The position numbers and the translations under genes are program-made. 64,000 bases of DNA, taken from positions 1 to 64,000 of IMG/VR virus record IMGVR_UViG_3300020446_001892; one strand, given 5' to 3'. Of the stretch, positions 13,656 through 16,204 are shown piece by piece. The notes beneath the pieces were generated by a model that was given only the letters and a program-made list of their open reading frames with translations, did no database searches and had not been told where the DNA came from. Position 1 is the first letter of the stretch. Each line of letters starts with the position of its first letter. This DNA comes from a virus.

Positions 13656-14009
13656 TTAATCTCCTTTGCCAGGCTTTTCACTAAAGTGTTCTTCATATTT
13701 ATTAGGTACTCCGTTCCAGTCCTTTGCGTCTGAAGGAACATCTTCAGGACGAGCTTCTGTTATGTTAGGCCAAATTTCAGAATATTTTCTATTAATTTCC
13801 TCCCACTTTACTGCTTCTTCAGGAGCAAACATGCTTTCAGATAAAATTGCATCTGCTGGACATTCTGGTTCACATACCCCACAATCTATACACTCATCAG
13901 GATTAATGACAAGCATATTTTCACCTTCATAAAAACAATCTACTGGACATACTTCGACACAATCCATGTGCTTGCACTTAATGCAATTTTCGTTTACAAG
14001 ATAAGTCAT
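13656..14009 (-). CDS. fdxA: Ferredoxin, FdxA-like (3Fe-4S/4Fe-4S type)
   Basis: The first 50 residues hold two Cys clusters: [14 protein letters not shown] and [12 protein letters not shown], the spacing of seven-iron ferredoxins of the FdxA family. The C-terminal extension ([18 protein letters not shown]) is also typical. The length is 117 aa. It may donate electrons to the adjacent 2OG oxygenase or to other reductive enzymes; this is inference. CTAAATA ends 4 nt before the ATG. Confidence 0.93.
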
Positions 14010-14013
14010 ACTG

Positions 14014-14020
14014 TATTTAG
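14014..14020 (-). promoter_or_regulatory. CTAAATA late box, 4 nt before fdxA ATG
   Basis: CTAAATACAGTATG is nearly identical to the start region of the 61865 gene. A leaderless message is predicted. Confidence 0.4.
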
Positions 14021-14931
14021 ATTCTAGCTAGCCTAATCAATGTAGCTGCCAGATTAATTTCTGGATCGACTACGAGTGTATGATCAACTAGGCCTTGTTT
14101 AATTGTTAATACTGCGGTGTCTTGTTTTTCTTCATCACCAAATAGTTCAATATTGTCATATAACCAACGATAAATTTCTTCCATCTCTTCTGGTCGTACT
14201 GCGCCACAAAGCAATTTACGTGCATCGTTTATTTTGCCTGCTTTGAACAGCTCGACCATCTCTAGCTTCCAATCAGCTTCACCTGTATCACCTTCATTAG
14301 GTCTTAGCAAGCTATTATCCTGTACATTCATTTGTACAGTATTGATACACTTACGCAAATCAGGATAGGTTGCTTTTACATATGTATCTAAAATATCTAA
14401 GTCTGGCTTTACACCTTCTGTGATAAGTATCTCTGCAACTCTTGCAGTAAATTCTGTTTGATCAATCTTTGCAATATGGAAACCTTGACATCTTGAATGT
14501 AGTGCAGGAATAATTCTATTAGGATAGTTACATGTTAAAATAAATCTTGCAGTAGTATGATACTCTTCCATTACGCCACGCAATGCGGCTTGTGCGTTTG
14601 GACTTAGATAATCTGCCTCATCAAGCAGTACAACTTTGAAATCACCAAATGGAATCATTTGTACAAAGTTTACAATCTTATCTCTTACGTCATCTACTGA
14701 ATTAGTTCTACTTGCGTTTATTTCTAAAACGTCTAAACTGTTGATTTCTAATTCGTTGAATAATAGTTTTGCTAAAGTCGTCTTTCCAATGCCAGCATTT
14801 CCAGAGAATAATAAGTGCGGAATTGTTTTGTCTTTTATCCATTGCTTCACCTGTGTTCTTTGCCCGTCATCACGGAAAACGTATCCGTCAACAGTCTTAG
14901 GTCTATATTTTTCTACCCATAATTCTTTCAT
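14017..14931 (-). CDS. Clamp-loader large subunit (gp44/RFC-small type AAA+)
   Basis: Loads the sliding clamp during phage replication. N-terminal [10 protein letters not shown] is the RFC hallmark. Walker A GNAGIGKT is at residues 44-51, Walker [11 protein letters not shown] near 105, sensor 1 LTCNYPNRI and the SRC arginine-finger motif (LHSRCQGF) follow. The 304-aa length fits T4 gp44. The clamp and gp62 partners are not in this window. It is 4 bp overlapped with the exonuclease gene. Confidence 0.92.
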
Positions 14932-15467
14932 TCATTTACTCCAAAATACTTATATGATTTTTGAACGCATTTTGCTTGATAATAGCAATCTGCTAATGCA
15001 TTATGTAGCTCTTCTTGTATTTCTTTTCTGGGATCTTGGTCCATCATAGAAAATAAAGTTCTACTATCTCTAATTTGCCAATAATTCCACGGCACAGGTT
15101 TTCCTATATTCTTATATAAGTCTTGCAAAATAACAAAATCAAATGTAGGACCTTGGCACCAAACGTAGTCCAAACCATTGCACCACTTGTTCAATTGTTT
15201 TGTAAGACTATCCATTGCCACACGATTTTCTTCACCGAACGCTTCTTCTTGTATATCTTTAGGCTGTCTACTCCACCATGCTAAAGTATTGTCATCAATT
15301 GAGCGATTAAGTTGTTCACTTTGTTCTTCAACATCACATTTTAAGTAGAGAGGGGTATGTGGTTCATCATCAGTAAATGGATTAAATTTAATTGCGCCTA
15401 ATGTCATAATGACACTGTCAGGTTCTACACCCAGTGTTTCTAAATCAATCATGCCGTGTGTTGCCAA
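14928..15467 (-). CDS. DexA-like 3'-5' exonuclease (RNase H fold)
   Basis: DEDD-family exonuclease. MIDLETLG gives the first Asp/Glu pair, TFDFVILQDLY the second Asp region and NALADCYYQAKCV the last Asp. The 179-aa length matches small phage exonucleases. The best start is TTG at 15467: AGGAG lies 7 nt upstream, whereas the first ATG (15452) has no ribosome-binding site. That AGGAG is inside one arm of a perfect 16-bp inverted repeat. Confidence 0.85.
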   Translation of the reverse strand: MATHGMIDLETLGVEPDSVIMTLGAIKFNPFTDDEPHTPLYLKCDVEEQSEQLNRSIDDNTLAWWSRQPKDIQEEAFGEENRVAMDSLTKQLNKWCNGLDYVWCQGPTFDFVILQDLYKNIGKPVPWNYWQIRDSRTLFSMMDQDPRKEIQEELHNALADCYYQAKCVQKSYKYFGVNE

Positions 15468-15473
15468 AAGAAA

Positions 15474-15522
15474 ACTCCTATCAATTTTTTATATATATTA
15501 TAGCTTAAAAATTGATAGGAGT
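15474..15522 (-). terminator. Perfect 16-bp inverted repeat: terminator and ribosome-site-sequestering hairpin
   Basis: Arms 15474-15489 and 15507-15522 are perfectly complementary with a 17-nt loop. On minus-strand read-through RNA the stem is followed by UUUCUUUU, like an intrinsic terminator for the Bax-inhibitor gene. The distal arm also contains the exonuclease ribosome-binding site. Confidence 0.6.
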
Positions 15523-15525
15523 CAA
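15497..15525 (-). promoter_or_regulatory. sigma70-type promoter TTGACT-17-TATAAT inside the inverted repeat
   Basis: The -35 (15520-15525) and -10 (15497-15502) are 17 bp apart. Initiation a few bases downstream would omit the 5' arm of the repeat, freeing the exonuclease ribosome-binding site. Confidence 0.7.
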
Positions 15526-15532
15526 GTATTTT

Positions 15533-16204
15533 TTATTCTCTGTTGCCCAAAAGCATCAGTAACATCTGAAATAAGTTAATAAAATTAAGATATAAACTTA
15601 TCGCAAATTGTATACCAAAGCGTGGATCTCCGCCGTGGTTTAAATAAATTTGCTTTGCATTTTGTGTGTCCCATGCTGTCAATCCAGTAAAGATAAAAAC
15701 ACCTAAGACACTAATTGTAAACATTAATGCTGAACTTGCAATAAAAATATTTACAATCATTGCAATAATTATTCCAATCAATCCCATAAAAAGAAATTGT
15801 CCGAATCCTTGTAAGTTCTTTTTAGTTGTATATCCATAAAGACTTGCACTCAAAAAAGTACATGCAGATATAAAAAATACTTGAGCAATACTTCCGCCAG
15901 TATATACAGCAAAAATAGGTGCTAATCCAACTCCCATTACAGTAACAAAACTGTAATAGAAAGTTCTGAGTGTTGAATAACTCCAATTTCTTCCTGCAAA
16001 GCTATACCAAAGGATCATACCCAACGGAGCAAATGCAAAAAGTAACATTGCTCCAGCCATTTGATATAATAATCCACTAGAATATACAAACCATGCAACA
16101 GCACCACTTAGGGCTAATCCAGCCGCAGTATGATTATACATGTTAATCATAAATTGGCGTAAACCTAAATCATATTGTTCACGTGCTTCTGTTAAAGTAC
16201 TCAT
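15533..16204 (-). CDS. Bax inhibitor-1/YccA family membrane protein (223 aa)
   Basis: Seven hydrophobic segments span residues 25-220. The conserved end of the family is visible (TGLTAWDTQNAKQIY, then LYLNFINLFQMLL). Bacterial BI-1 proteins such as YccA and YetJ act as pH-sensitive calcium leaks or inhibit FtsH. Here it may modulate host membrane proteolysis or ion balance; this is inference. Its start overlaps the MazG-like stop by one base. A hairpin follows it. Confidence 0.88.
   Translation of the reverse strand: MSTLTEAREQYDLGLRQFMINMYNHTAAGLALSGAVAWFVYSSGLLYQMAGAMLLFAFAPLGMILWYSFAGRNWSYSTLRTFYYSFVTVMGVGLAPIFAVYTGGSIAQVFFISACTFLSASLYGYTTKKNLQGFGQFLFMGLIGIIIAMIVNIFIASSALMFTISVLGVFIFTGLTAWDTQNAKQIYLNHGGDPRFGIQFAISLYLNFINLFQMLLMLLGNRE

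Follow-up and report, generated by a model that had tools for sequence, protein, structure and literature searches.

About 50 bases at the head of a phage DNA-replication operon seem to serve as a stop signal, a start signal, and a ribosome-binding site at once

What does a perfect inverted repeat do just upstream of the exonuclease and clamp-loader genes of an uncultured phage? The window that we analyzed is a stretch of 64,000 nucleotides (64 kb) from an 83.7-kb virus record, which may itself be incomplete. The genes near the repeat are all on the minus strand:

14017–14931, minus strand: gp44-like clamp loader (PHROG 168), the second gene of the downstream operon
14928–15467, minus strand: DexA/Rv2179c-like 3'-5' exonuclease with a TTG start (Pfam PF16473, PHROG 255), the first gene of that operon
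15533–16204, minus strand: Bax1-inhibitor-family gene (Pfam PF01027), upstream of the repeat and a possible source of read-through

The downstream operon continues from the clamp loader to a ferredoxin and, further on, ThyX. (The ferredoxin, a 4Fe-4S protein with a DUF3470 domain at 13656–14009, keeps its place after the clamp loader in relatives.) The stretch upstream of the repeat contains baseplate/tail-type genes, a polymerase fragment, a GroES-like head-morphogenesis protein, MazG, and the Bax1-inhibitor-family protein. (This last is a membrane protein with relatives in only 5 records of the phage collection.)

The original prediction was that a promoter is nested in a perfect 16-bp inverted repeat whose distal arm carries AGGAG, the ribosome-binding site of the TTG-started exonuclease. 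The parts of this element (15,466–15,525) are:

15520–15525, minus strand: -35 hexamer TTGACT, with its last 3 nt shared with arm 1
15507–15522, minus strand: arm 1, ACTCCTATCAATTTTT, the anti-Shine-Dalgarno side, mostly within the promoter spacer and covarying with arm 2
15506–15490, minus strand: hairpin loop of 17 nt
15497–15502, minus strand: -10 hexamer TATAAT, in the hairpin loop
about 15490, minus strand: predicted transcription start, the 7th nt past the -10, placed by standard sigma70 spacing
15474–15489, minus strand: arm 2, AAAAATTGATAGGAGT, which holds the Shine-Dalgarno sequence (from the repeat search, covariation, and RNA folding)
15475–15479, minus strand: Shine-Dalgarno AGGAG in arm 2, 7 nt 5' of the TTG at 15467
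15466–15474, minus strand: U-tract TTTTCTTTT, terminator-like, directly 3' of the stem and reaching into the TTG start codon

Read from 15525, the minus strand runs TTGACT, 17 nt, TATAAT, ATATATA, AAAAATTGATAGGAG, TTTTCTT, TTG, and the -35 is 7 nt from the stop codon of the Bax1-inhibitor-family gene. The repeat (15522–15507 and 15489–15474) is indeed perfect over 16 bp, and AGGAG lies in its distal arm as described. The nesting of the promoter holds in part: the repeat encloses TTGACT-17-TATAAT, with most of the spacer in arm 1 and the -10 in the loop, but the -35 shares only 3 nt with arm 1.

Arms this rich in A and T, in an AT-rich genome, might pair by chance. But this is the only perfect inverted repeat of at least 13 bp (with a loop of 3–40 nt) in the window, and 8 dinucleotide shuffles of the window gave no perfect repeat of at least 16 bp and only one of at least 12 bp. 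Together with the compensatory changes across 67 sequences that are described below, this refutes a chance repeat. Of the 59 promoter-like sites in 12 kb, this promoter and one other reach 11/12 matches; such sites are not enriched overall in these 12 kb (59 versus 55.7 in shuffles). T4-type late promoters (TATAAATA) are not enriched in the window either (5 versus 11.2 expected). A search of the element against the leaders and riboswitches in Rfam gave sub-threshold chance matches only, with none above the gathering score.

Our preferred explanation, to which we give a probability of roughly 0.7, is that this is a composite operon-boundary element that works at the RNA level: read-through is terminated or masked, and the element's own promoter drives the operon. 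An RNA polymerase that comes in from the genes upstream would copy both arms, and the RNA would fold into a hairpin of 15–16 bp, with the Shine-Dalgarno sequence in its descending arm and the U-tract immediately after. Such transcripts would tend to terminate just 5' of the start codon. In those that escape termination, the Shine-Dalgarno sequence would be buried and the first gene could not be translated. Initiation at the sigma70-type promoter, with its -10 in the loop, would instead give an RNA that begins at arm 2. With no hairpin there would be no termination and no masking, and AGGAG would be offered to ribosomes. If read-through is blocked and the operon's own start yields translatable RNA, then the exonuclease/clamp-loader operon would be insulated from transcription upstream and would depend on its own promoter alone.

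RNA folding is consistent with this scheme. The read-through strand of the window's element folds at -20.9 kcal/mol (z = -4.1). The predicted transcription start is the last base of the loop, so RNA that starts there lacks arm 1, and the predicted leader would be about 23 nt long up to the exonuclease start. This RNA folds at -3.1 kcal/mol (z = +0.9), which is no notable structure. The predicted probability that the Shine-Dalgarno sequence is unpaired is 0.00 in the read-through RNA and 0.19 in the promoter-started RNA.

We then collected relatives of the element from relatives of the exonuclease, relatives of the Bax1-inhibitor-family protein, and viral contigs that we scanned for the pattern. 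This gave 130 distinct units of promoter and Shine-Dalgarno sequence in viral contigs, 72 of them with strong arms. Many units in the same contigs are armless and so serve as an internal control. The carriers are related uncultured viral contigs of up to 275 kb. Nearly all of the strong-arm elements are at one junction, with few exceptions (such as L154, L223, L197/L246, and L211). The gene order there is pol, g17043, GroES-like, (mazG), (bax1), the element, exo or a 53-aa membrane protein, clamp loader, ferredoxin, ThyX. The gene before the element and the first gene behind it (exo, the 53-aa membrane protein, or others) vary among relatives, and the element stays. (The membrane protein of about 53 aa, with a GIGTTGATGIALMILHITGYLTGWAWPLLYVFLIISGIGQENRK core, is a conserved first gene after the element, as in L088, L156, and L166; it has no PHROG and no match in cultured phages.)

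The outer pattern, CTCCT and AGGAG around a promoter, extends inward by at least 5 pairs in 29 of 62 cases in viral contigs, as compared to 2 of 76 cases in bacterial genomes. A looser variant, TTGACANCTCCT, mostly lacks the arm extension in viral contigs. A caveat is that the search pattern behind many of these elements prescribes CTCCT, TATAAT, and AGGAG. In those elements, only the inner pairs are free of this bias. Similarly, the search required TTGA and TATAAT, so their invariance is partly due to selection of the sequences.

Among the 80 exonuclease loci (L003–L082), 22 have the promoter directly 5' of exo, and these lie 49–115 nt behind the upstream ORF. All 22 have a TTG or GTG start codon. 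Of the other 58 loci, 57 have an ATG start and one was reported by the search at a CAC codon; many of these 58 abut or overlap the upstream gene. (Genes other than exo that are headed by the element start with ATG.)

Judging by the clamp loader, the closest cultured phages are jumbo phages of the PA5oct/Paride group (54% identity). At the corresponding place these have neither the exonuclease nor the element: pol is followed by a hypothetical gene, a GroES-like gene, and, after a gap of 13 nt, the clamp loader. At the DNA level, a comparison of the locus and the element to cultured phages gave no useful similarity.

The original prediction had raised the question of whether related phages keep the repeat with compensatory changes. 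They do: in 67 distinct aligned operon-head elements, the covariation score is 0.415, versus 0.137 if the partners are shuffled and at most 0.112 if the arms are slid. Helix cells are paired 90.5% of the time (74.1% shuffled, 40.6–50.6% slid). Changes on both sides affect 142 helix cells, versus 50.9 if shuffled, and there are 35 further pair types versus 27.3, but these sequences are phylogenetically related, so the counts overstate independence. Column pair 12-44, for instance, is seen as CG, UA, GC, AU, and GU. In a small non-redundant set (less than 65% identical, and including armless members), there are 56 Watson-Crick cells versus 34.6 expected. As far as the alignment goes, then, the sequence of the arms varies strongly and their pairing is kept through compensatory changes.

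A perfect dyad that overlaps a promoter could also be a DNA operator, bound by a phage regulator of that promoter, and such a dyad would likewise conserve its symmetry. But only the pairing is kept, not the sequence of the arms, and the arm is anchored on the Shine-Dalgarno sequence. Mismatches in the helix also bear on this explanation. A hairpin in the sense-strand RNA tolerates G-U only, while for a protein-binding dyad or a cruciform, G-T and A-C mismatches are equivalent. Across all of the strong elements, we found 104 G-U and 13 A-C mismatches on the sense strand (49 versus 13 distinct contexts). In redundancy-reduced subsets the ratio is about 4–7:1, with p = 0.0005–0.18 once the columns that dominate the counts are excluded (two column sets); in the most stringent of these subsets the excess is not significant. 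An excess of G-U over A-C of about 4–8:1 suggests selection on the sense RNA. This bias supports a function at the RNA level and is not conclusive alone. We consider an operator very unlikely.

Would the hairpin terminate transcription, mask the Shine-Dalgarno sequence, or both? The original prediction offered the first two as alternatives for read-through RNA. Averaged over 72 elements, the predicted probability that the Shine-Dalgarno sequence is unpaired is 0.00 if the RNA is read through and 0.43 if it starts at the promoter. The latter value also favors the original view that RNA started internally, without the first arm, would be translatable. Directly past the Shine-Dalgarno sequence, a TTT run is present in 53 of 72 strong-arm elements and in just 4 of 56 armless promoters. 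Given this association and the shift in accessibility, signatures of both masking and termination are present. The arms are retained in the 19 of 72 elements that lack an immediate T-run, so termination is not universal.

These 19 elements, and the Shine-Dalgarno sequence within the stem of strong-arm elements, would also fit a translation lock only, as in e, soc, and I-TevI of T4, with no termination and an incidental U-tract. Such locks are experimentally established in T4 (PMC3014915, PMC2988022). The 17-nt loop of the window's element, which is long for an intrinsic terminator, points the same way and counts against termination; our terminator scan, which was limited to loops of up to 8 nt, did not report this hairpin. 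Against a lock only, the T-run is strongly tied to the arms and is usually exactly at the base of the stem. We think that a lock without termination is unlikely.

Another way to read the duplex is as a processing site for RNase III or a similar enzyme, between two parts of one long transcript. The 15–16 bp of the read-through RNA could be a substrate, as a matter of general knowledge. But processing does not account for a loop that holds the promoter or a stem that holds the Shine-Dalgarno sequence, and we give this explanation little credence.

In 9 of 17 armless operon-head promoters, the upstream stop codon overlaps the -35, versus 2 of 58 with strong arms. A ribosome terminating there would cover the position of arm 1. 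This counts in favor of the composite element but is only suggestive, since the armless loci belong in part to a single lineage.

We also considered other sites where a promoter and a hairpin overlap. A second candidate in the same record, L463 (about 12932–12873, minus strand; G000:C1, about 76.8 kb), has TTGACT-17-TATATT within a 12-pair stem. Each shuffled genome yields a site with as good a score about 0.4 times, and the candidate is missing from the sole relative that we found, so we rejected it as chance-level. (Its hairpin ends just 5' of the ATG start of a gene for 126 aa, phrog_27048, with an endolysin-like gene next downstream.) At other viral loci (such as L345, L349, L371, and L380), a perfect GC-rich hairpin fills the spacer, as TTGA-CACCTCC-TTCG-GGAGGTG-T-TATAAT; in many contigs it precedes a gene whose product starts with MSHxDPIIDKIIVARVGLLLRHPFFGNMATRLKI. 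In L328, from a genome contig, a long perfect palindrome (GTCATATTTGTATTATATAATATAATACAAATATGAC) lies over the -10 and the start of the gene resembles a GntR-type regulator; this palindrome looks like an autoregulatory operator.

Finally, we compared the element to known systems. T4-like phages such as RB49 and phi1 have PeSLs (promoter-early stem-loops), in which a sigma70 promoter is combined with a stem-loop terminator. These occur many times per genome, in hyperplastic regions, with genes exchanged beside them. The element resembles PeSLs in that a strong sigma70-like promoter overlaps a stem-loop. The first gene behind it differs between relatives, which may reflect a similar exchange. 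In the part of RB49 that we inspected, the -10 of several early promoters lies within the loop of a stem (L461 at 42355, 39130, 36985, and 3201, for example), and their Shine-Dalgarno sequences are outside the stem, downstream. The element could thus be a terminator and promoter only, a PeSL-type cassette whose Shine-Dalgarno sequence is in the stem through compactness, with masking of no role. The U-tract, the overlapping units of RB49, and the apparent exchange of the first gene would all fit. But the RB49 examples imply that compaction does not force the Shine-Dalgarno sequence inside, and elements without a U-tract keep their arms. We doubt this explanation about as much as we doubt the lock without termination, and we favor the composite element with both functions. 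PeSLs have many copies per genome, while the 83.7-kb record (possibly a fragment) has one significant copy, which marks one conserved junction. The element would work like a PeSL with the Shine-Dalgarno sequence pulled into the stem, but we do not file it as one because neither the copy number nor the position of the Shine-Dalgarno sequence matches. The papers that our literature search could reach contain no description of this element; PeSLs are the subject of Arbiol 2010 and Comeau 2014, both cited in PMC4503421.

The original prediction had also compared the site to a stage-specific trick of T4. On the long early RNA of T4, e, soc, 49, and I-TevI are masked; RNA that starts at late promoters within the 5' strand of the hairpin frees them (PMC3014915, PMC2988022). 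PMC2988022 describes the genes under this type of control as late. The parallel is real: in the leader hairpins of T4 e, soc, 49, I-TevI, and segB and of Aeh1 mobE, as in our predictions for this element, the Shine-Dalgarno sequence is hidden in read-through RNA and the RNA from an internal promoter is translatable (PMC3014915, PMC2988022). The likeness does not extend to the promoter or the class of gene. T4 uses late promoters (TATAAATA) and masks late genes on early RNA, whereas this element has a sigma70-type TTGACT-17-TATAAT in front of replication-type genes. It also has a U-tract, while the sections of PMC3014915 and PMC2988022 on these hairpins describe no built-in terminator. Because the promoter class differs, we do not file the element as a T4-type lock proper. 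With a sigma70-type promoter and a replication/nucleotide-type gene behind a block that includes structural genes, the stage switch, if there is one, would have the opposite polarity to T4's. A broader proposal, which is possible but which we hold tentatively, is that a lineage of large uncultured marine phages carries one conserved module of about 50 bp (terminator, promoter, and lockable ribosome-binding site) before the clamp-loader operon. The early operon would be locked on later read-through RNA, and the first gene would be exchanged behind a module that is kept.

An ordinary intrinsic terminator with a separate promoter behind it would likewise insulate neighboring operons, but here both share the same 50 bp or so and the ribosome-binding site is in the stem. 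Overall, T4-type phages offer close parallels, though this exact layout is not known from them. The element would be a compact and strongly covarying case of a single element that separates adjacent phage operons, blocking incoming transcripts and launching its own. It provides a handle on the transcription units of a large lineage of uncultured marine phages, and it links two T4-type devices, the PeSL and the masking of gene e.
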